This document shows, in pieces, positions 10,899 to 36,382 of a stretch of DNA of 64,000 bases. Within the stretch, counting starts at the first letter, position 1. Every line of letters starts with the position of its first letter. A model generated the notes under the pieces. That model had not been told where the DNA came from. It saw only the letters and a program-made list of their open reading frames with translations, and did not search any database. A program made the position numbers and the translations under genes. Source of the stretch: Diaporthe sp. PMI_573 (Eukaryota > Ascomycota > Sordariomycetes > Diaporthales > Diaporthaceae); NCBI GenBank assembly GCA_021399435.1, contig JAJTUP010000050.1:310001-374000 (forward strand), read 5' to 3'.

Positions 10899-12162
10899 AT
10901 AGTTATTAAAATTAAAGTTGCTTAATATAAAAAGTAAATTTAATATATAACGTAAGGAAAACTTATACTAAGGCGAGAGTTATTAATAAAGTTATTTGTT
11001 AAACGGAAACGCTTGAATTCGGCGTGGGCACTTCACGTAAGGAGTTACCCTAGAATGCACGTAAGGAGTTACCCTAGACTTGGCACTGGATTCCTCTAAG
11101 TGCCTATGGGGCGTGCGCGCCGAAAGATGAGTTTGGTGGCCGTGAGTCGATTTTTTGGGCTATTGTAAGACCCTAACTTCGAACCTCTGCATTCCCCTTA
11201 TTTCTTACCCAAAAAGCATGTAACTTAGTTCATTAGATAGCCTGATTTCTGAAGTTTATCTGTATTTAGTTTAGTTACTGTCAGGGTTAGGGTTGGCTGG
11301 TTATTTATAGCCAAAGATGGTGGGTCTGAGGGCCGAATTTTCCGGCCCCTCCATTCGCGCACCAGAGCCAACCCACGCGTGCCCAAGGGTGAGACGATGT
11401 CGGAGGGACTGTGAGGAGGGCTGACAGAAGCCCACTCAAATTCAATGCAAAGTTGTCCAAACTATTCTCAAGATTCCAAAGAAGCCTCCAGGCACCCTAC
11501 TGCTACCTGACCTATTCAATCCATCAACCTTCAGATTATTATAAGTAGGTAGTAGATGAATAGACAAATAGCTGGTTTGCTCCTCTAACCCTAGATACGA
11601 GGAACAAGACGAGGTAGTTCTTTGGATTAACAGTAGCAACGCCAAGCCACGGTCCTTGGCACCCACGGGTTAGTCAGCCTGTCTCCTCTTGGTTTACTCA
11701 TGGCTTCGAGTGTCCACTGTTCTCTTCTTCCTTTGCCGAACAACGGTCTGGTCCCATTCCACGTTTGTGACACGCATGCTGCAAGTCGCAGTATTCGCTG
11801 TCATTATCCACGGTCAATTTCCTTCCTCAGCCTCGATCACTGGCTACTGGCATAGCTGAGACTTGTGGTGAGTAGTAGGTGATCCCCAACAAGCCTGGCC
11901 GAAAATTGCTAAAGAACCATCTCAGTCTGCGAATCAACCTTCAAATCACTTTGCAGTAGAGCTCTGTAGGCCAGCTTGAAGAGGTCAGCATCGGACTCTC
12001 CCAACCTTCTTGAGTAGTGCAGTGGCATCGCGGCGATTGATGATGCCCACCACAGCCTCAAGCTGAAAGCTGGCCGTGGACATCCGGCCTTTCTGTTGCG
12101 ACAGGACTGCTCGGTACCTACGTACCCTGCTCCAAGTGTTAACATTTCATCTGGATATCGCA
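10899..12162. other. intergenic region upstream of the Zn2Cys6 gene
   Basis: No gene is supported. A direct repeat, cacgtaaggagttaccctag, occurs at about 11033 and 11058 (25-bp period). AT-rich sequence spans 10900-11000. The final 300-400 bp presumably contain the promoter of the transcription-factor gene. Confidence 0.5.
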
Positions 12163-14981
12163 ATGGGGACAACCGGCCCAGTGAAGCAGCCGGATCCCGC
12201 CCAGGGCCCATTGCGGCGCTCTGGATCTCCGGCCTCATCCTCGTCGCATAACACACAACGTTTGCGGGAGGGACCACAGCGTACGACTGCCGAGGCCGAA
12301 ACCTCAAGCCAGGCTCTGCAGCGGGTGGTTCGGAAACGGCGAAGGACGACAAAAGCCTGCGATGATTGTCGGCGGAAGAAAATCAAGTGTGATGGAAACA
12401 GGCCGTGTTCGAGCTGTGCGGACTTTGATTCGAGTAAGGACCCGTTGTCACCAGCTTGCGTATCTCCAGTGAATGACCGCCCATCTCCATTAGAGTGTTG
12501 TTATACAGGAATATCCACTCGAGGCCGTGGCACTAATCCCAGTGGCACCGGCTCTCTAGAGCGAAAAGCGCTTGCGGCAGAGACTCTGCTTCGCAGGTTC
12601 ATGCCGCACATAGATCTGGACAACCCGGAGGAGGTTGCTGCATTGCTGGCGCAACCGGCACATTCCGCCTCACCGGCCCAGCACGATGCTGTGGGTGACC
12701 AAAGGGCGTGCAGGGCCACTACCACGCCGGCGAGCGTAAATTCCGAGACAACAGCGAATGCTGCGAGGCGAATGCCCCTGGTCGAGAACGTCGGTCAACT
12801 AGATCTGACTGCCACTGGCGAATATGACTTCCATGGTATGTCGTCAGGGGCAGCGTTCTTGAGTCGTATTACCCAACAATTCCCGGGCTTGTTTCGATAT
12901 GACTCCAGAATGCCCTTCTTGCCCGAACCTGGCCGACCCTATCCAGCCAAGACATTTGACTTACCCCGGTATGCGGCTTCCCCATGGTCCCATGTCAGCG
13001 ACGGCTTCTCTCCAGTGCCCCCCAAGCCTCTTGCCCACGACCTGTGCGAATTTTCGTTCAGCCGGGCCACCTGCATTCTACGAGTGGTTCATGCTCCATC
13101 ATTTTGGCGGATGTTCGACAGGCTCTACGAAGAACGACCACAGAGATACACGCCCGAGGAGAGAAGGTTTGTGGGGTTGCTCTTTTCTGTCATGGCCTTG
13201 GGGTCGATGTACGACGTTGACGAGAATGATCCGACCAACCCCGATCACTACGCTGTGGCAATGGAGCGAGGGTAAGACAGAAAAATAATGTTCACCATGT
13301 CCTCCTGCTTTAGACTGACCGCTGCTGTGGCTCCAGTTATAAGTTCTACACTCTGGGACGACATTACCTCCAAGACATAACGGAATGTAGCGACATGACC
13401 ACCTTACAAGCGCTAGTGTTTAACATTCAATTCTTGCAAGCCACTGGAGAACTGAATAGTTGCCACACCTTCCTGGGCATCGCCCTTCGCTCTGCCCTGC
13501 GCATGGGCTTGCATCGTCATCTACCTGCTATTTCACTCGGACCAATCAAAGACGAGACAAGGAGAAGGCTTTTCTATACGATTCGGCAAATGGACATCTA
13601 CCTGTCCACCACGCTTGGACTCCCACTTCTTCTGGAAGAAAGAGACATTGACCAGCCCTGGCCGGCGGAAGTAGATGATGAATATATCACAGACAGTGGG
13701 ATCCAATGGCCGCCGCCTGGAACTCCTTCCATACTCGAAGCGTCGAATGCTAATTTGAGGCTTATGCACATCCTTGCCAAGGTCGTTCGCGACATCTATC
13801 CTCCCACAGGGACGGTCGAGGGGCCGGCAGAAACGTACATGATCAGCTTTTCCAAGATCAGGGAATTGGACCAAGACCTCCGCGACTGGCAGGAACAACT
13901 TTCACCTATGTGGCGTCCCGGCCACGAGGAAGATATTCAAGTCACACGGTATGCAAACTCGGCGTCTTCATGATTAACAACGTGGTATCCTCGTCTAAAC
14001 ACCTCACTACCCAGGGTAAAAATCCTACTTCGCTTCACTTATGCTCATGTTCAAATGATGCTATACCAACCTTTTATTCAATACTATTCACATCAGATTC
14101 CATCACAGGAGACGGTGGACGAGCGCTACTTTGCCCTCGCGTCAGCTGGCATCAATGTGTGCCGCAATATCATACACATCGGGCTCGAGATCCGCAAGCA
14201 GGCTGTTCTTATCGGTCCGTATTGGTTCATCACCTACACGCAATTCTTCGCGGTTCTCAGCCTAGTATTATTTGTCCTGAACAACCCGAACCAGCCCGGC
14301 GTCTCGGATCTCTTTGCGGACGCCAAGCTGGGCAAAGACTGTATCTCTGGTCTGACTCAGAGAAGCCTTGCGGCGGACAGGGTGACAGTCGCACTGAACG
14401 TGAGTTCATCATCCAACAGAGTGATTAGAACGGTCAAGTACAAGACCAAAATTGACAAGTAATAGTCCCTCTTCGATCAGCTTCCTGACCAATACAAGCC
14501 GAAAAGACCTCGCCCCCATGATGGCAGACCACAAAGTCCCACAGCGAGTCGCGGCCAGTCATCTTGTCGCCATCGAGACGAGCCAGTCCCCGCCCAGCCC
14601 CCGAGTCCTCACACCACCCAGCAGCACCAGTGGGCTCTGAATTCATTCTCCGCTGAAGACTCTGCCACGGCAAGCCCCATGGAAGCACTCCAGGCAACCC
14701 CTACAGCACAGCTTCCTGGGCACGCATCAAGGCCGTTCCAAGACGATTTCATGGACTTTCTCTTGGAGGACCCCTTTGCATACCCTTTGATGCCCGGCGT
14801 GGGCCTTGCAGAAAACGAGCTCGCTGCTTTCCCTGAAGATAGTCTGCGGCTTCCACTCTATAACACCGAGGTGGATATTGAAGGACAGCTCCTTGACGTC
14901 CATGTGCCAGATTTGCAGAATATTCCGCCACTGGCGATATCCCCGCCCAATGTTCCACTTGACCCCTCGGTTGGGCCTTGA
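12163..14981 (+). CDS. Zn2Cys6 fungal transcription factor (5 exons)
   Basis: Proposed exons are 12163-12433, 12494-13271, 13337-13948, 14015-14399 and 14466-14981. Introns are 60-66 bp with GT..AG ends, and phases join exactly (853 residues). The first intron splits the last part of the zinc cluster; splicing gives CDDCRRKKIKCDGNRPCSSC then ADFDSKC, a correct C6 spacing. A coiled/leucine segment (ALAAETLLRRFMPHIDLDNP) follows. The fungal-specific middle homology domain runs from about residue 270 to 560 (CILRVVHAPSFWRMF; TTLQALVFNIQFLQATGE; ALRMGLHRHLPA; ETRRRLFYTIRQMDIYLST). The C-terminus is proline/acidic and suits an activation domain. The architecture resembles Asg1/XlnR-like regulators; no target is assigned. 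The neighbour is a HAL-type kinase in convergent orientation. ATG 12163 is the first in frame after a GTG-only extension. Confidence 0.88.
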
Positions 14982-15592
14982 AATTCGTAGCCCGGGTCGA
15001 TGACGAGTGGGAGGACAACGGCTGGCAGATACTACTCGCTCAGATGCACACCATTTTTAACCCACTCCCTTCTATTTGATGAATCGAAGTTGAAACATTG
15101 ACCGTTGTCTGGAACTCGACGGATATCTTCAAGGACATGTATTTTCAGCTCGTCGCAATCATAAATTGAAATGCATCCAATACCGCAAAACTGGGGGCGC
15201 GTGGGCGCCACAGCTATCTGTACATAGGTACAGGTCCTGGCAAGCAGTGATCACATTAAGTCCGCAACACAATGGATTGCAAACGCGGCCGTATAACGCA
15301 GTGAGAAGCATTAATGCTTGCTACTGACAACACCATTCGTTGTCTCCAGGGATATTCCAAGGTTGATTCAGTGATGGGCTTCAGAACCGACTGACTGGGC
15401 CATGGATTATGTTTTATTCAGTCTTGATTATGATTTTGACCGCCCAAGCAAACTTGTCTGTAGTTCAGGTCCTCCACTTTCTGTTTTATATGCCAACCGT
15501 CTCTCTCGTATGGTACCAGGCTCTCTCGATGTTATGGATCAGGTCCGTCATGGGTGGGTATCAACAATGGAAAATCGCGAAGCGCTGCCCTT
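14982..15592. terminator. intergenic region between convergent genes
   Basis: About 610 bp separates the stops of the transcription factor (plus) and the kinase (minus), so it should hold both 3' untranslated regions and polyadenylation sites. A plus-strand ORF at 15402-15701 overlaps the kinase last exon and is not supported. A small GC hairpin occurs near 15190-15215. Confidence 0.4.
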
Positions 15593-16894
15593 CTATTCAC
15601 TCCCGGCTCCGTGGCAGACCTGCATGGCGCGACCCCATTCTGATCTGAAGAATTGGGATGATGTCAGTCGTCGGGTCGGCAGCGATTCTAAGAGGCAGTA
15701 GACGATGTCACGACACTCGGCCTGGATGATTGTCAGATTTGCGGCTGGGAGAGAGCGCAGGCCACGTTGCGACCCAAGGGCGAGAGCTCACCGGGTCCAG
15801 TGATTCCACCGGCTCAAAGCCGGCTTCCACTCGACGACCCTCCACGTATGAAGTGTAATATCTATCCTCCTTCCTTGCTGATGGCCAGAAGTAATGGCCC
15901 AGGCGGAGGACCATGTAGATCACGCCGCACGCCCATACATCTGCAGCTTGTCCGTCAAACTCGTCGTCCGTGTACTCCTCCGGCGCCACGTACGGCGCGG
16001 AGCCCCGTCGCCCGGACACAAGCCGCAACCCACCGTCGCCGTCCCCGGGACGTCGGAGCCACTGGCTGCAGCTGAAGTCGCTGATCTTTAGGTTTCCCGT
16101 CTCGGTCAGCAGCAGGTTCTCCGGCTTTAGGTCGAGGTGCGCGATGCCGAGCTCGTGCAGGTACCGGACGCCGCGCATGAGCTGCTTGAAGAAGCAATGG
16201 GCTTCCTCGACCTCGAAGGGCCACTCGGACTGGATCAGGGAGAAGAGATCCCCGGCCGCACAATACTCCATGGCTTCGTAAAGCTTGCCGTGCTCGCTCT
16301 GGAAGACATCGAAAACGCGGACCACGTTCGCGTGCTGCAGGTCGCTCGTGAGGTGTGACCCGTACTCGATCAGCATCTGCTTGTCATCTTCTACCGAATC
16401 CTGGCCAGGTCTTTGGTGGGACTCCTTGACGGCAACCAGCCTGACTTCTCGGCCATCTGGGGTAGTTTTGCGGAATATGCTAATCGTGCCATGGGCGCCA
16501 CGGCCAATGGTCTTCCAATATTTACCATATTTCTGCTCCAGTGTAGAGTATCCATCGACCATGTGGTCTGAGATCCCCGGGGTCTCCTGTAAATCCTTTT
16601 CTGCGTTGCGCTTGAGAATGAGCTGTGAAAGACCTTCTCGCACTCTGCCGTACTCTCTATCAAACAAGTTTCTCCAAGCGCTTGGTTTCTCCGGGCGAAT
16701 TGGTGAGTCGAGGAAGTGCTGATGTCCGTTGGGCAGAGCTGGATCGGAAATAAAGCGAAAATGAGCCGCAGCTTTAGAGGATCTCGCTTCAATCGAGAAA
16801 CCACAGTTAGCTCGATTCCTCACTTCGGGAAAGTCGTGACCCGTCCTCGGGGACTCAGTTAGGTGAATGTCGGGACAGGCTTACGGATGGACAT
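15593..16894 (-). CDS. HAL4/HAL5-type serine/threonine protein kinase
   Basis: Proposed exons on the minus strand are 16894-16885, 16822-15792 and 15721-15593. The long ORF has no ATG upstream of the domain. A 10-nt first exon (atgtccatcc) with a 62-bp GTAAGC..AAG intron containing CTAAC supplies one in frame. A 70-bp intron near the 3' end restores the conserved C-lobe (AECRDIVYCLLESLPTRRLT, SSQFFRSEWGRAM). Total 389 residues. The kinase fold is clear: IGRGAHGT loop, VAVKES lysine, YLHELGIAHLDLKPENLLL, KISDFSCSQW, APEEYTDDEFDGQAADVWAC. The catalytic Asp is kept, but HRD is HLD and DFG is DFS. The family (yeast Hal4/Sat4, Hal5) regulates K+ uptake by stabilising Trk1. A TRK gene starts about 1 kb away in divergent orientation. 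The tiny first exon is inference. Confidence 0.82.
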
Positions 16895-17921
16895 CCTCGA
16901 GGGTACGCGCAGGACTGACCAAGCGCAGGCAATGAAACTTGCCAGAAACCACATACTCTTCGACAGCGACTTACCTGCTCCTTAAGCATAAACATTCCAA
17001 TCCCCTCCCATTTGAAGGAGGCCGGAAATGATTACACCAAGTCGCAGGCAGCCAAACCGTCATTTTGCAACTCGACTTCCCAAGGGCTGTCTTCTGTACA
17101 TGGTGCCAAGGTCACCACTGATAGGCCGCAGCGAAGTGGTCCGTATTGCCAAGCTTGCGGCTGGCCCGAGGTTCCGGCTTTCTCGCAATTGATTGGCTCT
17201 TTCCGGAAAATCGGATTTACTGATGGGGTCTCTTTGCAGCACCCGGCTTGGCTGCTCTGTCGTGTCGCTTAGGTCAGGCCTTTGCCCATTGGTTGAGATC
17301 CGCCGAAGAACAAGAACGTATCAACACAGGTAACAAGCCTGCAGATTTTCTGTAGGTTAGAGGGACGCAGTTGAGGGAATTCAAAGTCGAATATGAATTG
17401 GAATCCGTAAGAATGATACGAAACACCTCAAGTATATAAATATGTTTCAATTTGTCTATTGGCCTTGATATGGGACAGTTGCTTTCGCGCAAGGCTGATC
17501 TCAGCCGCCAAAAAAAAAAACCCCCCCAAAAAAAAAAAAAAAAAAAAAAAACCCTTCCTCTTTTTCTGATCCCTCCAGGGCTTGATGCCCACCATCAGGT
17601 GCTCCTTCAAGCCTAGAGCTGCGCCATTTATTGCATTCCCCTCATGCCAAGTCTTTTACATATAAAGTACCGTACGTAGGACTGTCATGTCTCGACTGCC
17701 GCCACTCTTCGGCCCAGCAACAAAATACGACCCTTGGCACGTGGGCTCCTGGAACAGTTCTGCACTGAGTACGTCTCATGACGGGCCTGAAACAGCTCCA
17801 AATCACTATCAGTTTGTTACACAGCTTTTCCTAGGCTGTTTTCCTCCCCGTCTCATTCGCCTCATATTAATTTGCCTCTCTCATCAGAACCAGTTCATCC
17901 CGCGCTTCATACGTGGGAGCG
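16895..17921. promoter_or_regulatory. shared intergenic region of kinase and TRK genes
   Basis: This lies between the divergent starts of the kinase (16894, minus) and TRK (17922, plus), so it should contain both promoters. A low-complexity block of A and C runs occupies about 17510-17551. Several short ORFs have no domain. No specific operator can be named. Confidence 0.45.
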
Positions 17922-18245
17922 ATGTGGAAACCACATCTCAATTTCATTACGCTTCACTGTCAGTATCAAGTTTCTCCATCTCTGGCAGAATGCGTCCGGT
18001 TCGCTGACGCAATGACCGACAGATGCGTGGATCATATTGTGTGGTCTTCTTGGTCTGGTGGTCCTCACCCCAGAGGGAAACATCGCTGCCATCGATGCCT
18101 ACTTCTTTGGTGCAAGCGCTTCAACTGAATCCGGCCTCAATACGTGTGTTGAAAACGTTTTGTACTGAGTTTAAAGCGTGGCTAATATGGAATTCTCAAG
18201 TGTCGACGTGAAAGCTCTGAGGACATATCAGCAAGTCTTCCTATA
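17922..18245 (+). pseudogene. trk: TRK potassium transporter, 5' exons, cut by transposon
   Basis: Three exons are supported: 17922-17958, 18023-18143 and 18201-18243, with 64- and 57-bp introns (GTCAGT..CAG and GTGTGT..AAG). Spliced, they read MWKPHLNFITLHYAWII, LVVLTPEGNIAAIDAYFFG, ASASTESGLNTVDVKAL and RTYQQVFL. This is the first membrane hairpin and pore signature of fungal TRK K+ transporters, including the ESGLNT segment. The frame stops at the TA target of transposon copy 1. The next TRK codons (YIIPTITNLGFVN) are not downstream on this strand. They occur on the minus strand beginning at 22639, at the far side of the segment between the two transposon copies. The gene is therefore interrupted and its remainder is in the wrong orientation. 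Confidence 0.85.
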
Positions 18246-20138
18246 CCGTATATACTCGACAAATTCACGATACCCCCGGTCGCCTAATTAGGCCTAATCT
18301 TACCTAGGCTGAAGCTATAGCCACCTTACTAATCTACGCTAGGTTTAGCCCCCCAGAGATGCCCATCACGTCTCTAACGCGTCGATCTTGAAGTTATTTG
18401 TTTACTGCTGGTCTCATGGGTCACAATGCCTCCCCTAGGCCCAATCTCAACCAACATCCTACAAAAAAAGCCAGGGCCAAAGCCCAAGCCCCTTCATGAG
18501 CGAAAAGCTCCTTCATTTAAGCCAGTTACACGGGTAGAACGGTCATACAAGCAGAAAAAACGTGTTGAAGTTCTTCTATTTCTTTTGAACCACCGTATCC
18601 CAGGAACTACTGGAGGTAGAGGTGGCCATTATCGACAAGACCTCCCACCTTCCCAAGATGGCTTCCGTCCTCCTACACTATTTGAAGCCTCCCAGTTCTT
18701 CAAGATCCCTGAAGCAACTATAAGGACTTGGTGGAAAAAGCGGGATCAGCTTGTACGCAAAGAGGATCAACGAAGGTATCACCCTAGATGGCCAGAGTTG
18801 GAAGACAAGCTTTACACCTGTTTTCTTACACGGCGAACAGAAAATAGAATTGTTTCTATCGGCTGGTTTCGACGAGAATCAAAAAGGCTATTTAAGGACA
18901 CCTACCCTGAAAGCGTTCACCTCTGGGTATTCTCTACCGGCTGGTTTAGAGGCTTTCTACATCGACATAGGATTTCACATAGAAGGGTTACTAAGAAGGC
19001 CACCAAGCTTCCTGCAGAGTACCTTGAAGTTGTGAATAACTTCGTCAAGTTCATTAGACGTATATCTCAACCAAGAGATTCTCTCTCAGTACCAGTATCA
19101 GCACCAGCACCAGCACCAGCACCAGTTGTCAACAACTCACCTCCTCGGCGGTTCTCCAAATCAGCAATCCTAAATCTGGACGAAACTCCTATTCCATTTG
19201 AGTATAATTCTGGATGTACATATACTTCTACAGGCTCGAAGTCAGTACAGGCAAAAACAGAACGGAGTGGATGGGATAAACGACAAGCTACTCTTATTCT
19301 CTACATCTCTGCAGATGGCATACAGAGATTCAAGCCGAAGATTATATTCCATGGTACTTCAGGACCTGCAGGAAGGATATACAATCAGGAATCCTCATCC
19401 TACAGTCCTGATGTTACTGTGGAATTCAATCCTACAGCTTACAATAATGAGGAATTATTCGGTAAATGGATTACTGAAGAACTAGACGCAGTAGCTAAGG
19501 ATATGAAGGATTTCCTATTGGTTATGGATGTTGCTAGATTCCATGTAACTGACACTATCAAGCAACAGTTGAAGGATCTAGGGGTTACTATTGCATTGAT
19601 ACCAGCTGGCTGTACTAGTCTCCTTCAGCCATTGGATACTGCAGTCAACCATCCCTTCAAGCTTTGGCTTCAGGAATTTACTGACGAATATATGACAGAG
19701 AAAGAGAAGGAAAGCCCTGGACATATATGGACAGTCTCTGACATGCGTATAATGACTACCTGGGTAGTAGCCAGGGCAGTAAAACGTCTGGAAGAAAGGC
19801 CAGAGTTGGTTCAGAATGCCTTCATTCACACTGGAATTTCTATTCGTCCTGATGGAAGTCAGGTTAACATGGTCCGTATCAAGAATATAGAGCCTTCTCA
19901 AACCAACTGGGAAGGCTGGGAAACGGCTAAGGAACCTACCATGAAGATGGAGTATGAGGAAGTGTCTGTAACACCTCTGGAAGAGATGGACCTCTTTGTG
20001 AAGGAAGAGGAGGTTCAAGACTGTATTACTGTAGCTTGTTAGTGTATCCAAAACCCTGGCCATGGTGGCTTCAAACTAGACCAAAATAGGACTAGTCTTA
20101 GTGACCGGGGGTATCGTGAATTTGTCGAGTATATACGG
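18246..20138 (+). mobile_element. Fot1/pogo-type DNA transposon, copy 1 (intact)
   Basis: The element is 1893 bp with perfect 36-bp terminal inverted repeats beginning CCGTATATACTCGAC, flanked by TA on both sides (18244-18245 and 20139-20140). It contains one uninterrupted transposase gene. It appears identical, base for base over the parts compared, to copy 2 at 22640-24532, which lies in opposite orientation. Identical ends and an open ORF indicate very recent transposition or gene conversion. Confidence 0.93.
18426..20042 (+). CDS. Fot1/pogo-type DDE transposase (copy 1)
   Basis: A 538-residue uninterrupted ORF from an ATG. The N-terminus is basic (KPGPKPKPLHERKAP). A helix-turn-helix-like region covers about residues 75-150 (FEASQFFKIPEATIRTWWKK). 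The catalytic DDE_1 domain has Asp at about residue 252 (LNLDETPIPF), Asp 368 (LLVMDVARFH) and Asp 404 (LLQPLDTAVN). The last two are separated by 35 residues (DD35D). The enzyme cuts at the terminal repeats and reinserts at TA. All three acidic residues are present and no stop or frameshift is seen, so it is potentially active. The same protein is encoded by copy 2. Confidence 0.92.
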   Translation: MPPLGPISTNILQKKPGPKPKPLHERKAPSFKPVTRVERSYKQKKRVEVLLFLLNHRIPGTTGGRGGHYRQDLPPSQDGFRPPTLFEASQFFKIPEATIRTWWKKRDQLVRKEDQRRYHPRWPELEDKLYTCFLTRRTENRIVSIGWFRRESKRLFKDTYPESVHLWVFSTGWFRGFLHRHRISHRRVTKKATKLPAEYLEVVNNFVKFIRRISQPRDSLSVPVSAPAPAPAPVVNNSPPRRFSKSAILNLDETPIPFEYNSGCTYTSTGSKSVQAKTERSGWDKRQATLILYISADGIQRFKPKIIFHGTSGPAGRIYNQESSSYSPDVTVEFNPTAYNNEELFGKWITEELDAVAKDMKDFLLVMDVARFHVTDTIKQQLKDLGVTIALIPAGCTSLLQPLDTAVNHPFKLWLQEFTDEYMTEKEKESPGHIWTVSDMRIMTTWVVARAVKRLEERPELVQNAFIHTGISIRPDGSQVNMVRIKNIEPSQTNWEGWETAKEPTMKMEYEEVSVTPLEEMDLFVKEEEVQDCITVAC

Positions 20139-20161
20139 TACACCTTCTCCAGCACAACCTT

Positions 20162-22639
20162 TCACGTAGGTTTTGATTTCACAGCAGTTCTACTCGCATG
20201 AGTAGAGGCCTTGGAGGCACTCCGGGTGATTGGCCCATCCAGGTCTCTCCGTGAAGACTCGCCCGGCAGCATGACAGCACGATCAAGCGCGTACGGGAGG
20301 CCGCGATGGCGACCACGGATCATCAGAGCACAGGTCACGAGCTTTGCAAACGTGCCGAACTGGCCAGACAGTGAGGTCATGACCGTTGGGTGCCCAAGCG
20401 AGAGCCCGACGTTGCCGCTAGGACGAGATTGTTAGCAGCGAACGTGGGGACAAGATGCGCATTGATTTCTTGCGTGCACTCACTAGGCCGAAACCACCTC
20501 AAAAAACACCGAGAAGACCGAGAATGCCTGGCCCGGGTGCGTTAGCTGAAAGCTCCTGTGTCGTAAAAGCATACTCTTGGTTGCTTGGGGCGGCTAGGCA
20601 GGTACCAACCGGCTCTGCCAAGTCCTTGATCCTCCCCGACTCGGCCACGCAGATGCAAAACGTCCCGAGAAATATGTACCACAGGTCAAAGCTCAGCTGG
20701 TTTCGAACGTGCGTCATGATGTAACTGGCTGCCCCGGACTCGTCGACGGGGCGGTCTGCTGGGTATAACCCGATGGCCTGCTCCTCGTACGTGTTGGAGG
20801 CGCCTGGGACGTGTTAGTCACCTGCTAATGGTGTGCACTCTCAAACGGTCCAAACCGTGACAGATTGGGGGGGGGGGGGCGGCGGGAAAAGATACGGATG
20901 ACACTGACGAATGCTGATAGCTATTGGAAGAATGGCGATGTACATCATGACGAGGAGGCTGAATTGGACAGCCGGGTTGATTTCGGCGAGATTCAACGTC
21001 GAGGTACCTGTGTGGCGAGAAGATGCTGCCTGAAATAGGGCAGAGAGGATTCGTGGGCCCATCGGAAGGTCGTTCACGGCTGGGTTGTCCAGATCTAGGA
21101 CGACAATAAGCAGCACGTCAACGAAGTTTAGTGCAGCAATTATCCCGAATAGAATCCAGGTTGGGTGACTGGGAAACAACAGGGTGTAACATCGGCGTGG
21201 ATGGTCGAGGAGAAACTTCAATGCTGCGTTTGTGGGCTTGTTGGAATGCGTCAATTTGTACGTGACCCATATGCAGAAGCGCAGCACCACTGGGTAGCAG
21301 GTGTTGCCGGCAAAAGCCAAAAAGGTCATGAGCAACATGGGCCATGTGGCGTCCTTGAATGTGATCATGGAGTCCGGAGTCAATGTGAAGCCGAGGTTGT
21401 TGATCATGGTCTGTGAAGAATAAAACGCCCTTTTCAACGGCTTCAGCAACGACGACGCGTAGAATGTGGCAAGATGGAAACAAACAGAATAACTTACCAC
21501 CAAGTCTTGTCTTGGCCGCACTCCGCCAGCCAGTCTGTGTACTTTGACGGAGCAGTATGGATCCATGGGAGCAAGCTAATTACACCGAGGAAATGCAGCC
21601 CGAGATAATATCCTAACGTGGAGCTCGTCAATATCGAAGCCAACACAATGGCACCCCAGACATACCGCAAACGATTTTGAGGAGCAGCTTCAGCGCCGTA
21701 TACTCAATACCACCCAGCGTTTCCGCGTCTTCGGCTGTCAGGTCATGGAACTGCGAGTTCCTGCCAATAGTCACTTGTTTGGAAAGTCCCGGCAGATTAT
21801 TGGGCCTTGGATGTTGCGAAGTACTCGAGAGCCTCCGCTCCGCACTGGGTCGAGATCCTAGCACAAACATGGATCCGGCGGCATTCTCGATCGATTTAGC
21901 CGCGGATATGGCGGGGCCTTCGTTGCCAACATACTTTCGTTGTTTAAGCATGGAGGCAGTCTCTCCTGTCGTTCGAGAAGGCTTTACTTCATCTTGACCT
22001 GCGCAAGAGGGGAGAAATTAGCATGACTGCCGCGAGGAACTCGTATTTCACTCACCTTCATCGGCTGGCTCGGTTTCCCGAAGGCGCTTCTCTATAAATG
22101 GCTGGCCTATCTCTTTGGTCAGACTTCCATGAATGAATGGCATGTGGTAGCCACATCAAGACCCCCAGCGTCGCGACTAACCGTTGTCACGCTCCAATGG
22201 AGGTGGTATGTAGTATTCCGTGCTGGAGGACTTCGGTCGTTTATAATCAGAGTCGCTCGAAGTAGGGCCACTTGGATCAGCCGAGGAGACAACTTCTCCA
22301 TCACTCGTAACCCGCTTTGCTTCACTGTACCACCCATTAGGCGCGCTCAACTTTGCAGGAGGTTGTGGCATGACCTACTTCACGGCCGAGGGATCATCTG
22401 GGGTCCTTTTGTGCCCCTCTAAGTCCTCGTCGCGTCTCAGTGAGAAAACCACGCCCTTTGGAGTCGGCCGGGGGTTGGATTGAGCTGAAAAGAAGCTATT
22501 CTATCAGCGCCCATCTTGCCTTGGGGGGAAACAGGGAGAACTTGCCAGAGGCGTTGAGCTTCTTTCTGAACCAGAAAATCCGGGCCACAACCACCATGAT
22601 ATTTACGAAGCCCAGATTGGTAATGGTTGGGATGATGTA
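20162..22639 (-). pseudogene. trk: TRK potassium transporter, remaining exons, inverted
   Basis: The minus strand continues the TRK frame from the TA at 22639: YIIPTITNLGFVNIMVV, ARIFWFRKKLNA. Introns that restore the frame are 22545-22485 (GC-AG, 61 bp), 22055-21999, 21665-21613, 21497-21430, 20908-20804, 20609-20528 and 20483-20418. Membrane segments and pore motifs include YYLGLHFLGVISLLPWI, SSQTMINNLGFTLTPDSM, AFAGNTCYPVVLRFCIWV, VVSAYGNVGLSLGHPTV and MIRGRHRGLPYALDRAV. The stop is at 20164-20162, 24 bp from copy 1. In the long cytoplasmic loop there are TAG codons at 22377-22375 and 22179-22177 and a frame change before 22140, so this copy appears dead even apart from the inversion. TRK proteins import K+ across the plasma membrane. 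Confidence 0.87.
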
Positions 22640-24532
22640 CCGTATATACTCGACAAATTCACGATACCCCCGGTCACTAAGACTAGTCCTATTTTGGTCT
22701 AGTTTGAAGCCACCATGGCCAGGGTTTTGGATACACTAACAAGCTACAGTAATACAGTCTTGAACCTCCTCTTCCTTCACAAAGAGGTCCATCTCTTCCA
22801 GAGGTGTTACAGACACTTCCTCATACTCCATCTTCATGGTAGGTTCCTTAGCCGTTTCCCAGCCTTCCCAGTTGGTTTGAGAAGGCTCTATATTCTTGAT
22901 ACGGACCATGTTAACCTGACTTCCATCAGGACGAATAGAAATTCCAGTGTGAATGAAGGCATTCTGAACCAACTCTGGCCTTTCTTCCAGACGTTTTACT
23001 GCCCTGGCTACTACCCAGGTAGTCATTATACGCATGTCAGAGACTGTCCATATATGTCCAGGGCTTTCCTTCTCTTTCTCTGTCATATATTCGTCAGTAA
23101 ATTCCTGAAGCCAAAGCTTGAAGGGATGGTTGACTGCAGTATCCAATGGCTGAAGGAGACTAGTACAGCCAGCTGGTATCAATGCAATAGTAACCCCTAG
23201 ATCCTTCAACTGTTGCTTGATAGTGTCAGTTACATGGAATCTAGCAACATCCATAACCAATAGGAAATCCTTCATATCCTTAGCTACTGCGTCTAGTTCT
23301 TCAGTAATCCATTTACCGAATAATTCCTCATTATTGTAAGCTGTAGGATTGAATTCCACAGTAACATCAGGACTGTAGGATGAGGATTCCTGATTGTATA
23401 TCCTTCCTGCAGGTCCTGAAGTACCATGGAATATAATCTTCGGCTTGAATCTCTGTATGCCATCTGCAGAGATGTAGAGAATAAGAGTAGCTTGTCGTTT
23501 ATCCCATCCACTCCGTTCTGTTTTTGCCTGTACTGACTTCGAGCCTGTAGAAGTATATGTACATCCAGAATTATACTCAAATGGAATAGGAGTTTCGTCC
23601 AGATTTAGGATTGCTGATTTGGAGAACCGCCGAGGAGGTGAGTTGTTGACAACTGGTGCTGGTGCTGGTGCTGGTGCTGATACTGGTACTGAGAGAGAAT
23701 CTCTTGGTTGAGATATACGTCTAATGAACTTGACGAAGTTATTCACAACTTCAAGGTACTCTGCAGGAAGCTTGGTGGCCTTCTTAGTAACCCTTCTATG
23801 TGAAATCCTATGTCGATGTAGAAAGCCTCTAAACCAGCCGGTAGAGAATACCCAGAGGTGAACGCTTTCAGGGTAGGTGTCCTTAAATAGCCTTTTTGAT
23901 TCTCGTCGAAACCAGCCGATAGAAACAATTCTATTTTCTGTTCGCCGTGTAAGAAAACAGGTGTAAAGCTTGTCTTCCAACTCTGGCCATCTAGGGTGAT
24001 ACCTTCGTTGATCCTCTTTGCGTACAAGCTGATCCCGCTTTTTCCACCAAGTCCTTATAGTTGCTTCAGGGATCTTGAAGAACTGGGAGGCTTCAAATAG
24101 TGTAGGAGGACGGAAGCCATCTTGGGAAGGTGGGAGGTCTTGTCGATAATGGCCACCTCTACCTCCAGTAGTTCCTGGGATACGGTGGTTCAAAAGAAAT
24201 AGAAGAACTTCAACACGTTTTTTCTGCTTGTATGACCGTTCTACCCGTGTAACTGGCTTAAATGAAGGAGCTTTTCGCTCATGAAGGGGCTTGGGCTTTG
24301 GCCCTGGCTTTTTTTGTAGGATGTTGGTTGAGATTGGGCCTAGGGGAGGCATTGTGACCCATGAGACCAGCAGTAAACAAATAACTTCAAGATCGACGCG
24401 TTAGAGACGTGATGGGCATCTCTGGGGGGCTAAACCTAGCGTAGATTAGTAAGGTGGCTATAGCTTCAGCCTAGGTAAGATTAGGCCTAATTAGGCGACC
24501 GGGGGTATCGTGAATTTGTCGAGTATATACGG
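22640..24532 (-). mobile_element. Fot1/pogo-type DNA transposon, copy 2 (intact, inverted)
   Basis: Same 1893-bp length, same 36-bp terminal repeats and same encoded protein as copy 1, but in opposite orientation. TA flanks lie at 22638-22639 and 24533-24534. The left flank is TRK coding sequence; the right flank (tgtactatctagtagg) is intergenic and not TRK-like. With copy 1 it forms a pair of 1.9-kb inverted repeats around 2.5 kb. Confidence 0.93.
22736..24352 (-). CDS. Fot1/pogo-type DDE transposase (copy 2)
   Basis: A 538-residue ORF with the same predicted sequence as the copy 1 transposase, including the complete DD35D triad (Asp 252, 368, 404) and the N-terminal DNA-binding region. It is intact. 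Having two intact copies means either could supply transposase to both and to any shorter derivatives elsewhere. Confidence 0.92.
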   Translation of the reverse strand: MPPLGPISTNILQKKPGPKPKPLHERKAPSFKPVTRVERSYKQKKRVEVLLFLLNHRIPGTTGGRGGHYRQDLPPSQDGFRPPTLFEASQFFKIPEATIRTWWKKRDQLVRKEDQRRYHPRWPELEDKLYTCFLTRRTENRIVSIGWFRRESKRLFKDTYPESVHLWVFSTGWFRGFLHRHRISHRRVTKKATKLPAEYLEVVNNFVKFIRRISQPRDSLSVPVSAPAPAPAPVVNNSPPRRFSKSAILNLDETPIPFEYNSGCTYTSTGSKSVQAKTERSGWDKRQATLILYISADGIQRFKPKIIFHGTSGPAGRIYNQESSSYSPDVTVEFNPTAYNNEELFGKWITEELDAVAKDMKDFLLVMDVARFHVTDTIKQQLKDLGVTIALIPAGCTSLLQPLDTAVNHPFKLWLQEFTDEYMTEKEKESPGHIWTVSDMRIMTTWVVARAVKRLEERPELVQNAFIHTGISIRPDGSQVNMVRIKNIEPSQTNWEGWETAKEPTMKMEYEEVSVTPLEEMDLFVKEEEVQDCITVAC

Positions 24533-24870
24533 TATGTACTATCTAGTAGGTGTAGTGGCGGTCTTATCGATAAGGCAGGGGACATGGAGTGGGGCTGTCA
24601 AATGGTATCAGTGCTGTTTCTGTACCACAACCCCAACCCTAATAAGCTTCACCCTCCCCTGCTCACGGCGGGGGTGGTGGATGTGTAATAAAGCTGGATT
24701 GTTGTTGTTGACTGTTGCCTGGCGCCATCATCCTCCATCCAGTGTTACTCGAACAAACGTGTCCCATATGGCAAATTCCCTCTTTCAAGTCGCCCGCAGG
24801 TCTCCCATGAGTTGGCCATGACCTGATGACTACAATATCGTTCCGAATTCCATCCAGTGTCGAGCTCGAG
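24533..24870. promoter_or_regulatory. upstream region of the F-box gene
   Basis: This 338-bp interval should include the F-box gene promoter and, if the inversion model is right, DNA that originally followed the TRK stop codon. An antisense ORF at 24663-25058 is an artefact overlapping the F-box first exons. Nothing else is recognised. Confidence 0.4.
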
Positions 24871-26796
24871 ATGCCGTCATCTTCGCCATCAGAGGCCCTC
24901 GAGGCCATCGTCTCATCCGAGGACTTGGTGCATTGCGTTGCCCGATACGTGAGTTTTGTCCCCATCCATCTGATCCCTTTCTCCGGCACAACTGACTGTG
25001 GATAGGTGCCATCTCGAGCGACATTACGAAGCCTTTGCCTTGTCTCGAAATTCTTCAATCAGACATTCTCACAGTTTCTCTACTCCAGCATTGTCTTCCA
25101 TGACGGAAACGCTCACATCCTCCGGGATCCAGAGCAACTCGAGAAATTCACTTCCAACCCCAATCTTATTTATTGCAAATCTTTGTCATTCAAACTTATC
25201 GAAGGTTCCTGGGCCGTCGGTAACCACCGTGAAGTTGGCCGGCTGGTCGACGCTCCTGGCTATGGCCGGATGGGGGACATAAGACATTGGGCGGGCCGAT
25301 ACAATGAGAGCATCATCAAGATCTTATCGTTGACTCCCAACATCTATAGATTCGAGTGAGTGTGAGAGATGAACCCCAAGATATTTTCTAACTAACCTCC
25401 TGGTAGATGGGAGAATTGGCCAATATCAGAATCTGTGCTCGAGATGCTTGAAGAACAGTGCCCATCCTTGCGGGATGTATCCATCATCTACCCGAACCTA
25501 GCAAAGTTCTCCCGGACCGAGAGGTTCTATCGAAACGGGAAGAGCGCCTTCGACGAAGAAAAGCCCAAGATAATACCTCTACCGACCCCGGAGCTACAGA
25601 ACCTCCGCAAGCTCTACTTGTACGAGATCAACGGTGATCTTGACGTGTGGATTCCAAAGATAGCCACCATGCTGGGCAAGTCGCGGTTCTTGGAGGAGCT
25701 TGGCCTGTCCTTGTCAGCAGAGTGTGAAAGGCAGCATGCGCTTACTGGGAAGTCCAAGACATTCTTGAACTTCTTCCCGTCTCTGGTGGAGCGATACCGT
25801 GACCAGGGGGACGAGCCGCTGAGGCTGCGCGTCCTCAAGATGGGCTATGGGGTGCTTTTGAACACGCCAAAGGAAGGCCTCGAGGACAGTGAACCGTATC
25901 AGGGTGTATACCTTTCTTCCCTCATTCATCGAGCCTACCTCGAGGAACTCTACGTGGACAATGATCTGGACGTCGGCTGCCCGCTAAAGATCCGCACCTC
26001 TGTGGGCCGTATCGCATGGTCCTGGATCACACCCTCCTTTCTGCCGAACCTCAAGCGCTTCACCTTCACCAGCCTGTCTGTTCAGAGCCAAGTCTGGCTC
26101 GGCCAGCACCCAGACCCGACATTCGCGAGCAACCTCGCCATGGGCATCGGCACCGAGAAGCTCGCATTCAGCTACATCGACGATAATGGCACCCTGCAAA
26201 GCGTGCGCAACAACAACATCCACCGACACATCGGCCAGATAGGCGAGAGGACCTTCTTCCTGCACAAGTACCGGAACCACCCAAACCTGCCCCTCAAGAG
26301 CTCCGTCGTGTCCGTCCTGAAGCCCTGCCACAAGGATCTCCTCTGTCTTGGCAGCTGTACCTGGATCAAGACCCTCTCCATCTGTCTTCAGAAGCAGACC
26401 ACCATCCCCGCGCTAAAGAAGATCGCACAGACTCTGCCACAGACTGAACATCTGTGGATTCGTATCGGGATGGACTATCCGCTCGTGGACGGCCAGAGCG
26501 AGGCCAATCATAAGGGCAACGCGATACGGATGAAGGATGGGGCGCTGGTTGATGAGCAGCAGTATCTGCACTCTACTTGGAGGCAGAAGTGGGCGGAGAT
26601 GGCGGCCACCGTGGCCGAGGCGAAGTCGTGCCCCATCAAATATCTCAAGATTGGGCATCTGGCATGGCGGGTGCTGCCACGTCCAAAGGGGGCCAGGAAG
26701 GCTGTTCTGGAGCCACTTGATCGATGGGAGGATGAGGCGAAGGGCCCGGATGTCTTCCGGTATAATGATCCTGTGAGGAGGGATCATCCTTACTGA
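24871..26796 (+). CDS. F-box-like protein (3 exons)
   Basis: Proposed exons 24871-24948, 25006-25355 and 25407-26796, with introns of 57 and 51 bp carrying CTGAC and CTAAC branch points, give 605 residues. The N-terminus (ALEAIVSSEDLVHCVARY, then VPSRATLRSLCLVSKFFNQT) has the helix pattern of a degenerate F-box at residues 8-50. The rest is a long alternating alpha/beta region with leucine-rich, repeat-like segments (LEELGLSLSAECERQHAL; SLIHRAYLEELYVDNDLDV; PIKYLKIGHLAWRVL). F-box proteins link substrates to the Skp1-Cul1 ubiquitin ligase. No substrate can be inferred. The gene looks intact and lies directly to the right of transposon copy 2. Confidence 0.75.
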
Positions 26797-27125
26797 GACA
26801 AGGGTATCGAAGCTGTTTACTATAGTGGAAAGTGACTCGAGTCCTGCTAAGAGACCCATATGTAAGCCCTGGAGGTCTATGTAAATATATCAGCAACCAA
26901 CGGGACAGAATACTCAAGTGCTCTCAGTATCCACGAGTCGCCTTCTCCAATGTTCAATGCCAGATCTCTACTTGGGAACCAGTTTAAGTTTTCCCGGCCG
27001 AGTCAGGAATTTACACCTGCGCTGCATCATACTCATCCGCGAGGCGAAATCCCTTCGCGTCTGCCAAGTGGAAGGACGGTTGACGGAGGAAAAAGGCACA
27101 CGGCCATTCATGGTTCAAAATAGGT
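26797..27125. other. intergenic interval
   Basis: This holds the 3' untranslated region of the F-box gene and DNA up to the Pot2-like element. No gene, RNA or repeat was recognised. Confidence 0.5.
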
Positions 27126-27127
27126 TA

Positions 27128-28885: not shown

Positions 28886-31800
28886 TCAGTATCGATAGAA
28901 ATTTATTTCACTATTCCCATGTCTCGGTTCTCTCCACAGTGCTGGCCCTTTTACAGGCGGGAATTGGAAGAAGTCCCCAAAGAAAATGATAACTGGCAGT
29001 CCACCAAAGAGGTCAGGCGAGCTGCGATCTAGGGATTTTGCAATCTTGCACTGATTGTTGATCATGCTTAACGAAGTTAAATCCAACATACTAACTTCGT
29101 CCATGATTATAATCGTCTTCCTGGACCACAACTTTTTGATGCGAGCGCTTACTGTAGGCTTTTGGGTCTTGGAAATTGAAATACCCAAAGAGGTATGGTA
29201 GGTATTTCCACTGATATTGTCAGCAGCAGCTCCTGTAGGCGCCATCAGGATGACCTCATGCTTTCGCATCATAAGGTCCATGCCGGCAACAATGGCTTTG
29301 ATGACTCGACTCTTGCCAGTTCCGCCTTCTCCTCCAACGTAGAGGAGCATCTGATCCCGCCTGGATGCATCATATGGATTATCTCTCCAAGCTATCGCGG
29401 CAGAAAGCACTCTTTCTATAACAAGTCTCTGCTTTGTATTGAGAGGGAGAACTTTGCAGACTAGCGTGGTAAGAGTTGTGCCAGAAGGGCTATCGCCGAC
29501 TCGAGAGCGAAGGTTTATTAAGTTTGGTATGGCTTGGAGTGAACTCAGAGTAGGGTGGAAAGTGCCATCACCAAGATCAGGACCGAAACTGTCGCCCTCG
29601 AGTGCAATACGCTCTTCTGGTTCGATGTTATCAAGCTCATCGCGTGTAGCAAGGCCTTTGATTTGTAGCTTCCAGCTCTCTAGTGTAGGGTTGGGGAAGA
29701 ATCTAATGCCAGAGGTAGTAAACGTGGGAAGTCGAAAAATATCAAGAGGCACAAGACTTCGTGATTGCAGGCACTGAACAAGGTGCGCTTTTGAAGATAA
29801 GAATGGAATACGCTGGCTGGCGGCATGAAGTTCCTTGCGCCAAGATGTAGCGATGGAATGGTATGCCGATATCAGAGCCTCATCGGTGAATTCCTGTTGT
29901 GGAGAATCCTGAGATTCTTCGGCATCCAAGTCGGAATTAGCAATTTCCATATCGTCAATGTTATGGTCGAGGTCGTCCTGAGATATCGCCGTTGCGTTAC
30001 GGAGAGCGGCGTCAACCATTGCATCCTCTCTGGATTTCCGAAGGAGCTCCATGTTCCTAGCGAAGTTGCGATTATGAGGCGAAAGCGTGGGTTCAACAAT
30101 GTCCCATATTCTCGAACAGGCATCCCGTTTTGTGTCATACTCAGAAGCGTGTTGTTGAAATAGGGCCGGCAGTTGGTCCCATGGTAGGAAAAACCCCAAT
30201 TGCACTTCGGCGAGGTCATTCTTGATAGCAGTTGTGTTTGGATGACCTCCACAAACACCTTCCTCCTGGATCTGGTACTGAGAGAATTGGCCGTTGAAGG
30301 ACACGGTCTTCACCTGAGACTCGGTACGTGCCATGCACTGCACGTGTGTGTTGCTCTTGGGGTGGGTCGTATCGAATTCCACGTCGGATGTCGTTGCGTC
30401 AGACCTTCTCTTAACATCTACTAACATGCAGTATTCGAAAAGGGTAAGATGAGCTAGATCTGGACCACGCCATCTGTAGTTGTCGAAACGGCTTACGGGA
30501 GCCGTATCCTTGGGTTGAAAGGTGCATTCCTCTTCGCCTGTGAACTCGGGAGAGCCATCGAACAGTGATCCGGTAGACTCAATGGCGGTGCGTACATATC
30601 GCCTTAGCCACCAGAGATTGACTTGGACAAAGTTGTAATTCCTTGTGTAATATGTCGGTAGCTGAAGCAAGGAGTTGGCGATCTGTACACCGCTAATCTC
30701 GCGGTCGTGAGACAGAGTGTTGAAGCAGCGAAGAGCAAATTGGTCCATATCCATTTTCCGAAATCGCATGTCGGCAGCATCTGGTGTCTGAGTGGCCTTT
30801 GCCTTATCCATGCTTTGTTTCAGCAATGCAGCCTTTACTAGCATTTGGTGTGGGGAAACGTCATCCTTCGTCGCATAATTTGTAAGGTAGTAGATGAGAG
30901 CCAGGCACTTGGTAGTGGTTGGGATCCAGGAGATATCGTGATTTGATCGGATGCAACTGGCGATTGCTGGATTCCATGGATTGACCCAACCATGGTTTCG
31001 AGCGAGATGGACCACACCTAGCTCGTCCACTTCAGAATGCGGCCGAAGGTCCCGTGGCATACCAAATCTGCAAGCATCCTTCCCTCGCCCCCTTTGACGA
31101 TACTTGAAACAGGTAGCGGTGTGGTTCGAGGAATGGATTTGACTTTTGCCAGCAACTGCATTGCTATCAGCCGTGAGCCTTTGACGGAATTCGTTATCAG
31201 AACCCGGATCCTTAGAAGAAGGTGGCGTATTTGCGGGCCCTGATTCCGGAATGCTATCATTCTCCGAGTTTATGCTGTGAACAATGATAGATTCAAGATA
31301 CCGTATCACCCGTTGAGCAAAGGCCCCATCTTGTACAAGCCGTTCCCGCAGAGTGCTGAAGGCAAGATTGCCCGTAAGCCATATCAAGACATGAAGATGT
31401 AGCATGCCACGACCGTTTGTCTCAACAACGCCGTAGTGATTTGCCACTTGCCCAAGGATTCCAATACGTCCTGTGCCAGACTGGATGAGACCATCAAAGA
31501 TGGCTTTACAAACGTGATTGAAGAATTGGGCAACTGCCACTGGGTTTGACGTTGCTGCTGTATGACGAATAGCCGCGGTCGCTGCAGGGACGGCATCGGC
31601 AGGAATTTCGATTCCTGCCAAGATTAGAACGAGAGGGTTCCGTAAATCGGAAGGATTGATCGTCGCCCAAATTGCCGGTTCGGCACCCCGTACAATAAGT
31701 CCTTTAATTTCAGTCCGCATCATCAGCTTTTGGGAGAATGATTCAGGTACTCGCATGCCAATTGTTGTAAGGCCTTGCTGAAGTCTACGGACTGCGGGGT

Positions 31801-33530
31801 CCTTAATGGGTTGTCCATTGGAAACTGCTGTTGCGGCAGTCTGCAACTGATCGACAGTCAAAGAGGCGATATCATCCCTAACAGATCTCCAGTTTTGGCG
31901 TTTAACAAGCATAGCGTTTCCGAGAGATGATCGGCGCAGCTGTATCACGTCGTAGAGAAGGTACATGAATGTCTTATGGCGAGCAAACCTGCGAAGGTTA
32001 GTATAAATAACATCATAGTTTCGGAGACTCTAACCTTCTGCTATGGTGGCTTAATGCCCACTGTGCAAAAGTATTAAGTGACACTGGTACTGGCCTCTGA
32101 TCTTGGTGGCCACCGAGGCCGTTGGGAGACAATGTCGGGAAAGCGCCAGTGAAATAATGGGGATCTTCCCAGCTACTCATCAGTGTAGCCTGGCTGTGAA
32201 TAGCATAAGAGATTGTTGGCAAATCTCTTTGTCTATGCTCGTGCTCGGGCTCATGCGAACTATCTGCAGCTTGATCTGTTTCATCCACCCAACGCGTGTT
32301 GCCTGTTACCACTCCTAACAAGGCATCAATCAACCGAAGGTTAGAATCCGTCCGTTCTCCATTGACATCCGCGTAGACTGAGCCGGTCACGAACGGATCA
32401 TTGTCATTGGGAAGAAATGCCTCATCTTGAGCCGCCTGGAAGTCATTTTCATAGTTCCCAGTTTGAAGGCTAACAGTATATCCTTCGCGTTCGTGATGAT
32501 CCGGATCCTCAAGATGAATGATGCTATCAGCGATTTCAGGCGGGATAAAGTCGGAAGGCCAGGCGTCTGTCATCGTATGGTTGATTGTGATATCGTGATA
32601 AAGATGGTTGTGCTGGACAAGATAATGCAACGCCGTCAGAACTTTGTCCTTTCGAACGCGTAAGAACGGTTTTAGATCCTGATTGGTAGGAGGGTGTTTA
32701 CCAAGCCAGAAGACCTTGAATAGATTGTCTAACCTCAGTTCAGGGCTTGGGAGGATCTGAAGGAGGGGTCCAGGGTCTTGCGGAATGACAATCATGTGGC
32801 CTCGCAACGCATTGTAGTTTGTTGGAGAGGCATGGTCACCAGGTCGCAATTTGAGGATCGTACCAACAGGGTGGCATTTCGCGATAAGGCATTCCTCGGC
32901 GGGCGTAAGGTCTTCCAATGCCGATGGATAATGCTGGCACATTGAGACGTTGACGAAGTTTTCCGCCGAAAATTTGGGAATGCTGCTGCGTCTAATAGCT
33001 GTATAGCATTGACTACAGAAATCCCAAGAATCTTCGGGATGGCCACATCGATCCAAGCTCGTTTGGTGGGTTTGGATGAAATGATCGTGATCGTCAATTT
33101 GATATACATATCCTGTGAAAAACTTGCCGCACGAACAGCATATTGATCTTTGGGACGCAGCTAACATCTCATCTTCGTATAGGCTGATAGAAGACCGAAT
33201 ATGGGAGGAAGAGATTTCTGGTGGAAATTCTCGCGAAGCCACCTCTCGCAGATCGAATTCATCTTCTAACAAGCCCACAGCAAGTTTCACACAGTTCGGC
33301 GGAGGATTCCCTGATAAAGGACCTCCCGTTAGAGGCGTCAGGTTTATAGAATTGTGAAACGGATCGAAGTTGGGTGGAAGAATTGAAGGGATGGTGTTCT
33401 CAGGAACGTTAGGTTGCCGTCGAATCCAGTGGTAGGGTCGTGTTCGAGACCGACATCTATCGCATGTACGATACCGAGAATCAGTCCATTCCCGGAGACA
33501 ACTGGTGCAAACAGTGGCAGGAGTGAACAT
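28886..33530 (-). CDS. Helitron Rep/helicase, helicase C-terminus missing
   Basis: Two long minus-strand ORFs join through a 46-bp intron (32034-31989, GTTAGA..CAG with ACTAAC). Exons 33530-32035 and 31988-28886 give 1532 residues. The N-terminus has CX2C zinc motifs (CTSCLREW; CDRCRSR) and a DUF6570-like region. The Helitron-like N domain contains the HUH motif in GRGMLHLHVLIWL (about residue 697) and the tyrosine motif IYYLTNYATK (about 866) for rolling-circle nicking. A Pif1-type helicase begins with Walker A GGEGGTGKS, then APTGAAADNI, Walker B IIIMDEVSM and GDFFQFPPV. It ends soon after (LWREPRHGNS), so motifs IV-VI are absent. The truncation lies next to a Pot2-like element. Helitrons copy themselves by rolling circle and often carry host gene pieces. 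Confidence 0.85.
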
Positions 33531-34517: not shown

Positions 34518-35594
34518 CCCTCATCCATACTGGACGAATATCCCCACAGATCCAAACCCAGTCCTAGAAGAAGGCCGTGGTGGGGTAGCGGCAGGCCCTG
34601 AGGTCGCTATTACCACAGATTAGGCCACGTAGGGGAAGGAAGCGACCAGAGCACGAAGACTCGAGCAGATCCTCCTCACAGAGACCGCGGACTGAAAGTG
34701 GTGGTGGTGGACCTGGTGGTGGCGGTGGCATACGGCTTCTTACATATTTAAAGTTCGAGAATGGATGAAAGCAATATATAGCCCCCGAGTCCCTAATCAT
34801 TCGCTTTACCTCATAAAACTGAAGATCAACACTACTTTCCTGAGGGAAACTTCGGCGGTAACCAGCTACTAGACAGTTCGATTAGTCTTTCGCCCCCATG
34901 CTCATATTTGATGGGCGGCACAGCGACGGAACGCTTTTTGTGATCCTGTAACGGGGTCTCCAGGGCAACGGAGGCGTTCCAAACAACTGCAGCCCAGTTG
35001 GACGTACCCCTCGTCTTCCCCCTCCTGTGTAACAACTGTGGGCTAGGGCCATGTGTTCCGCGGCCCCCCGTAGTGTGGATGTACGTTCTCCTCGTCGTCC
35101 TCGCGCACCACGATACGTTCCTTTACACAGTCGACTTTCTGCCGTGGAATTCAGCCCCCGACGATGGCGAACGGTGGAGAAGGGAAACGGGCTATATGCC
35201 AAGTCAGTTTTTTGGGCCTCGGCATCCATTCCTTTAGACCCTAACGTCCGGTCTTTTAATTTGCGGTTGTTTAGAAATTTCGAAAGTTGTACCCACTTTC
35301 TAGAAGCCCTAGGATGATCGTAACATGCATTCATTCAAGTTACTAGAATTCAAAATCCAGAAATTGGCCTGCTTTCCACGTATAGAAAAGAGGTCATCCA
35401 ACTTTAAACAACTAAAATATGTCGAGAGGTCAGGGGAAGATGCTGGGCAAAGATTGCTTGAGGGCAGATCAGGATCTGAACATTCCGTGCTATGTTACGA
35501 TTGATACCTGACTACATTGTGATTCCAGTGCGTCTAGCCACCCATCTTATAACCTGACCTGCCCATCCCTCATGGATCTCGATGCACGCTGGCC
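34518..35594. other. interval without recognised genes
   Basis: A minus-strand ORF of 150 codons (34882-35334) has an ATG but biased Arg/Gly composition and no domain; it is not called. A GGT/CCA-rich low-complexity stretch occurs at about 34695-34730. Confidence 0.45.
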
Positions 35595-35716
35595 TGAGCG
35601 AGGCTCAGCCCTGACTTGGGCGCCATATGGGCCTGAGCGGTGCTGCGGTGCCTTTCGCCGATACTACGGTGCCCTTCACCGGGCCTCCGACGGGCCCGAA
35701 GTGCTGCCTTCCAACA
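35595..35716 (+). repeat. 122-bp dispersed repeat, copy 1 (uninterrupted)
   Basis: This 122-bp segment begins tgagcgaggctcagccctga and ends gtgctgccttccaaca. It matches 52186-52258 plus 52483-52531 with a few substitutions. It serves as the empty site for the solo LTR inserted in the second copy. It is probably internal debris of a larger transposon, since hAT sequence lies near both copies. Confidence 0.7.
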
Positions 35717-36066
35717 CTATTTCATTTATTCTAGTCTACTATGATCTGCCGTGGTACAAGCCCTTCACCATCTCACCAATCACCTACCACTTCTTTTAGC
35801 GATGAGTACTCTTTCACATCTGAATCATCAGCCAGTACGATAGAGTGTGAGGGATTGTGCTGCCGCGCCGCTGAAGTGGGAAGCCAGGTAGCCAACCATG
35901 ATGGTACCCAGCCGTCATGGTGTAGATATTCGCCACCTGAGGGAATTAAATACGACTAACATACTATGGCGGCCGAGGCTGTAGCAAATAAAGGTGAGAG
36001 ACCTCACAAAACTCTTGACCAGGTAAATCTGACATCAACTAGTTGATTTAACCTGCAATTACATAT

Positions 36067-36291: not shown

Positions 36292-36382
36292 ATCATGGCT
36301 AAGAGGAGGCTTGTTGGAGGAATATGATGGGTTGCTGAAGGAGATAGGTGACGACGTGGTTGAGGCTGTGAACCAGGGGTAG

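Follow-up and report, generated by a model that had tools for sequence, protein, structure and literature searches.

A fungal TRK potassium-transporter gene of Diaporthe sp. PMI_573 is split, with its start on the plus strand before one transposon and its remainder on the minus strand between that transposon and a second, identical one. Two transposons inserted into the locus, and the 2.5 kb between them was then inverted, very probably by a homologous crossover within the copies. The window, which is the whole 64,000-bp stretch of DNA analysed here, corresponds to C164:310001-374000; C164 is a contig of 469,167 bp in a genome of 83.7 Mb assembled into 217 contigs. The features of the locus, in window coordinates, are as follows.

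17922..18245, plus strand: TRK start, exons 1 and 2 and the first part of exon 3 (17922-17958, 18023-18143 and 18201-18245 in the gene model); spliced, stop-free and matched by 10 of 10 relatives
18246..20138, plus strand: transposon copy 1, pogo/Fot-like, 1,893 bp, 36-bp perfect terminal inverted repeat; TA at 18244-18245 and 20139-20140
18426..20042, plus strand: transposase frame of copy 1, 538 amino acids, DDE_1 (PF03184); open reading frame and profile scan
20139..22639, minus strand: inverted segment, from the remainder of exon 3 of TRK through exon 12, plus 21 bp behind the stop; BLASTN against C212 and gene model
22639-22546, 22484-22379, 22324-22182, 22112-22056 and 21998-21666, minus strand: first five TRK minus exons, from the rest of exon 3 onward; gene model
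21612-21498, 21429-20909, 20803-20610, 20527-20484 and 20417-20162, minus strand: last five TRK minus exons; gene model
22640..24532, minus strand: transposon copy 2, same sequence as copy 1 in opposite orientation; TA at 22638-22639 and 24533-24534
22736..24352, minus strand: transposase frame of copy 2, 538 amino acids; open reading frame
24533..27127, no strand: right flank, which follows TRK immediately in the uninverted C212 copy; BLASTN and letters at the joint

The plus piece of TRK encodes 67 residues, the last of which are TYQQVFL, and runs up to the TA that precedes copy 1. From the TA adjoining copy 2, the minus piece opens with the residues YIIPTITNLGFVN and comprises 620 residues in the present gene model, or 618 with the public splice site, at which the fourth minus exon (22112-22056) starts 6 nt later. 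Both pieces are stop-free when they are translated apart with the introns of C212. The TrkH domain (PF02386) was located by profile scan at 20841-21566 on the minus strand with 178.8 bits, and further exons were also matched in a TrkH search.

The original order of the gene is retained on two other contigs, C212 (extract L053) and C65 (64,986 bp; extract L054). On C212 the gene is contiguous and is modelled with 12 exons and 11 introns, encoding 687 residues with no internal stops. The public proteins of this strain and of its relatives lack two residues of the C212 model at one intron, which suggests that the acceptor at that intron probably lies 6 nt downstream and that the full protein has 685 rather than 687 residues. 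BLASTN aligns C212 with the window in three blocks, 16274-18246 (98.1%), 22639 back to 20139 (99.4%) and 24532-27127 (99.3%), which abut on C212, with neighbours overlapping by three positions. The C212 copy bears no transposons, its segment is uninverted and each joint contains a single TA; the two indels between the window and C212 segments are both intronic. C65 is likewise transposon-free and uninverted with a single TA at the first joint, and its homology stops at window position 20869, short of the second. The empty, uninverted state is thus found at joint one in both sister copies and at joint two in the one copy that spans it. The split is more than a chance juxtaposition, because the uninverted, transposon-free DNA is present at two other places in the genome.

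These copies bear out the core of the original prediction, namely that TRK was split by an inversion between identical inverted transposons, that the plus piece ending in YQQVFL at the TA of copy 1 continues on the minus strand at the TA next to copy 2, and that reversal of the segment restores a single TA at the joint. The prediction had also placed the TRK stop 24 bp before the other copy; the stop is indeed near that copy, at a corrected distance of 23 bp from the transposon and 21 bp from the TA. The comparison with relatives, which had been proposed as a check, agrees. All 10 relatives' TRK proteins tried (of 120 listed) are colinear, matching the plus strand from 18025 or 18028 to 18252 and then the minus strand, and none is arranged as in the window. 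The change from the plus to the minus piece falls at about residue 70 to 79 of these proteins; the minus match begins exactly at 22639 in seven proteins and extends a few residues into the transposon (22663-22672) in the other three. The colinearity of these proteins indicates that the change ran from the colinear to the inverted order. Among the proteins tried, the closest relative of the window gene is Diaporthe batatas P0003, to which the protein predicted from C212 is colinear over its full length (75% identity over 100%). The record is unusually complete: one genome contains the empty sites, the segment in its original orientation and the rearranged locus, and no second strain is needed to read the change.

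The TrkH search revealed five further TRK loci in the genome, on C112, C148, C165, C57 and C161, and the gene on C112 is closest to P0086 and P0053 among the proteins tried. Only the TRK gene of the window has near-identical partners (C212 and C65). An interpretation of the sister copies as haplotypes of a diploid assembly is disfavoured, as the five other TRK loci are each present at one place only. The window stretch 11536-27127 is a segmental duplication that carries TRK, a Zn2Cys6 regulator and a protein kinase, and parts of it recur at 98-100% on C212 (173980-184559), C195 (127282-130969), C65 and C15. C212 contains a 1,168-bp insertion that is absent from the window (C212:178445-179612; L057 46-1213), with an 11-bp repeat of window 16274-16284 on either side, so that it resembles a mobile element that has duplicated its target. 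Of the 11 substitution sites in the segment with letters in the window, C212 and C65, the first seven (columns 33-973) are differences of C212 alone, and the remaining four (columns 1393-1745) are differences of the window alone. This separation of the private differences into two halves is no more than suggestive of gene conversion among the three duplicates.

The two transposon copies are identical at 1,893 of 1,893 bp, each with perfect terminal repeats and a TA on both sides, and the transposase frame is intact in both. The transposase matches DDE_1 at 49.1 bits (cut-off 22) and the CENP-B/Tc5-type DNA-binding domain PF03221 at 20.4 bits, just below the cut-off of 22.2. It shows the DD35D spacing, with 35 residues between the last two of D252, D368 and D404, which we take from the motif to be the catalytic residues. 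Copies that match at least 92% of the element occur at no fewer than 27 places in the genome, and the 26 copies aligned (L001-L026) differ from copy 1 by 0 to 7 substitutions. The TA target is found on the left side of 26/26 and on the right side of 25/26 of these copies, the exception being L021, which is shifted by one base. The window pair has in common a length allele and two nucleotides that are absent from the other 24 of the 26. Among transposases that cover 90% or more of the query, the closest has 56% identity, and shorter matches reach 61% (among the best 120 of 231). Judged by their sequences, the window elements are a young, so far unnamed pogo/Fot-like family. They share with the Fot family a fungal host, DDE_1, DD35D and short terminal repeats, and with clades FotC and FotD the TA target (PMC7386202). 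In contrast, Fot elements as described there mostly use a TAA target (341/385) and have repeats of 40-60 bp, whereas the window element has TA and a 36-bp perfect repeat.

Element length varies mostly in 6-bp steps from 1,893 to 1,941, with other lengths up to 1,958 (L001-L026), and the likely site of this variation is an Ala-Pro codon run that reads APAPAP in the window copies and lies in the transposase frame. Dating by transposon divergence is uninformative: identical pairs make up 7 of the 325 pairs among the 26 aligned copies, so the identity of the window pair is not special in itself. A second identical inverted pair, of 1,917 bp and about 53 kb apart, lies on C158 (298224-300145, plus strand, L012; 353402-355323, minus strand, L011) and offers a second place to look for an inversion.

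Inverted homologous transposons are located exactly at both breakpoints of the window locus, the two flanks of each copy now stem from different original target sites, and no DNA was lost at either joint. In the mechanism that we propose, two pogo/Fot-like elements would have entered one copy of the duplicated TRK locus in opposite orientations, with one target in exon 3 and the other just behind the stop codon. After both insertions, a crossover between the inverted copies (non-allelic homologous recombination) would have flipped the 2.5 kb. This TRK copy would already have been broken by the exon insertion, and the inversion would then have placed the first pore loop and the other three on opposite strands. 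The intermediate, with both transposons and an uninverted segment, was not found among the copies of the segment in this genome. Non-allelic homologous recombination between inverted transposon copies is known to invert the intervening DNA (PMC8225341), so the process is of a known kind and the present locus is a very clean instance. As in the inversions described in that source, homologous copies lie in opposite orientation around a flipped segment, the flanks are exchanged and no DNA is lost; unlike them, the present locus has empty, uninverted sister loci in the same genome, and its TA target is no marker. A test of mechanism by mismatched target duplications is therefore weak here, the target being only TA, and comparison with the empty sites was used instead. 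Our literature searches found no paper on the locus or on a Fot-like inversion in Diaporthe, and such a paper may still exist.

Orientation errors arise at identical inverted repeats, and an assembly artefact would leave both transposons real and merely misorient the segment between the identical 1.9-kb copies. We consider this improbable: the assembly has contigs of more than 3.4 Mb (C1 and C112) and resolves many near-identical 1.9-kb copies, which together suggest long reads that would be able to span the 6.3-kb structure. A related JGI-type project used PacBio, although its main text does not mention Diaporthe (PMC8664821). An origin by alternative transposition, of the reversed-ends or hybrid-element kind, in which the transposase itself generated both the inversion and the second copy, appears improbable to the same degree. 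The transposase frame is intact in both copies, the private nucleotides and length allele of the pair are as expected of a local copy, and events of this type are cited for further elements, among them Fusarium impala (PMC8225341). However, the reversed-ends model in that source starts from elements in direct orientation and loses the DNA between them, and here nothing was lost relative to C212 at either joint. The flipped DNA coincides exactly with the interval between the two inverted copies, and this precision without loss argues for homologous recombination rather than reversed-ends transposition. An inversion that came first, by breakage and joining, with one independent transposon insertion per breakpoint thereafter, has no specific point in its favour and is hardly credible, as it would require that each breakpoint fell precisely on a TA, that the same transposon variant later struck both of these TAs, and that neither joint lost or gained a base.

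TRK function needs four pore loops. We assign the first to the plus piece and the other three to the minus piece; with the loops divided in this way between the strands, neither piece should be able to work alone. Read from its sequence, the window copy is probably null, and its function was presumably lost at the insertion and not at the inversion. Since an uninterrupted sister copy exists, the inversion event was probably close to neutral. Two functional proposals of the original prediction do not hold. Stop codons in a cytoplasmic loop had been taken to indicate decay of the gene, but the apparent stops lie in two introns, one of 54 nt and one that the present model puts at 69 nt, and they are absent from both pieces once these are spliced. 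A natural flip switch had also been envisaged; copy 1 lies in exon 3 and interrupts the coding sequence in both orientations, and this 1.9-kb insert excludes an uninterrupted TRK from either. The locus is thus not an on/off switch of TRK.

Because the arms are identical, further flips may be mechanistically possible within the proposed recombination mechanism. It is unlikely, though somewhat less so than the rival origins weighed above, that the locus is a live invertible element whose two orientations arise repeatedly in growth or at meiosis and alternate the transcriptional context of the minus TRK piece. That piece would then lie alternately behind the transposase and behind the TRK promoter plus transposon, and the locus would be comparable to the Sclerotinia MAT flip, but built from transposons. 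The locus is small and allows one to ask whether pairs of identical transposons continue to flip in a filamentous fungus.

Mating-type switching in Hansenula/Ogataea polymorpha reportedly flips a chromosomal region by inverted-repeat recombination. The likeness to the Diaporthe locus is that recombining inverted repeats would flip a region; the yeast system is a regulated switch with a function, and nothing of that kind is shown for the Diaporthe locus. At the MAT locus of Sclerotinia sclerotiorum, a 3.6-kb inversion between identical inverted repeats of 250 bp truncates MAT1-1-1; it is described as occurring in every meiotic generation and as not seen in mycelial growth (PMC3574095). Like the Diaporthe locus, this case concerns an ascomycete in which a segment lies between identical inverted repeats and a gene is truncated by its inversion. 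The Sclerotinia arms derive from a gene fragment, whereas here they are 1.9-kb transposons; the Sclerotinia inversion segregates 1:1 in progeny and has effects on expression (PMC3574095), whereas here one orientation is seen and the gene was already interrupted by an insert.

The split bears on the public annotation. P0001, 'potassium transporter [Diaporthe sp. PMI_573]', comes from the contig of the window and agrees with the window minus piece where C212 differs, and P0002 is a public protein of the same strain from C65. In both, the 54-nt intron containing the loop stop is spliced out. The start of P0001 is an internal methionine, and the first 81 residues are missing from it. This annotated potassium transporter (22639-20162, minus strand) is the truncated remainder of the rearranged gene, and its listing as a 604-residue 'potassium transporter' is a warning for annotation.

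Other repeated sequences lie elsewhere in the window. A 3.2-kb stretch at 35420-38639 recurs at 97-99% at four or more other places and partially at two or more besides; all recurrences stop at 38639, and the first 297 bp alone are found at many places (both among the 40 scored of 652 candidates). Most of an AAA-ATPase frame at 37514-38656, which we take to resemble BCS1, falls within this stretch. A Helitron-type helicase frame of 1,026 amino acids (Helitron_like_N, PIF1) is located at 28886-31966 on the minus strand, a few kb to the right of the locus.
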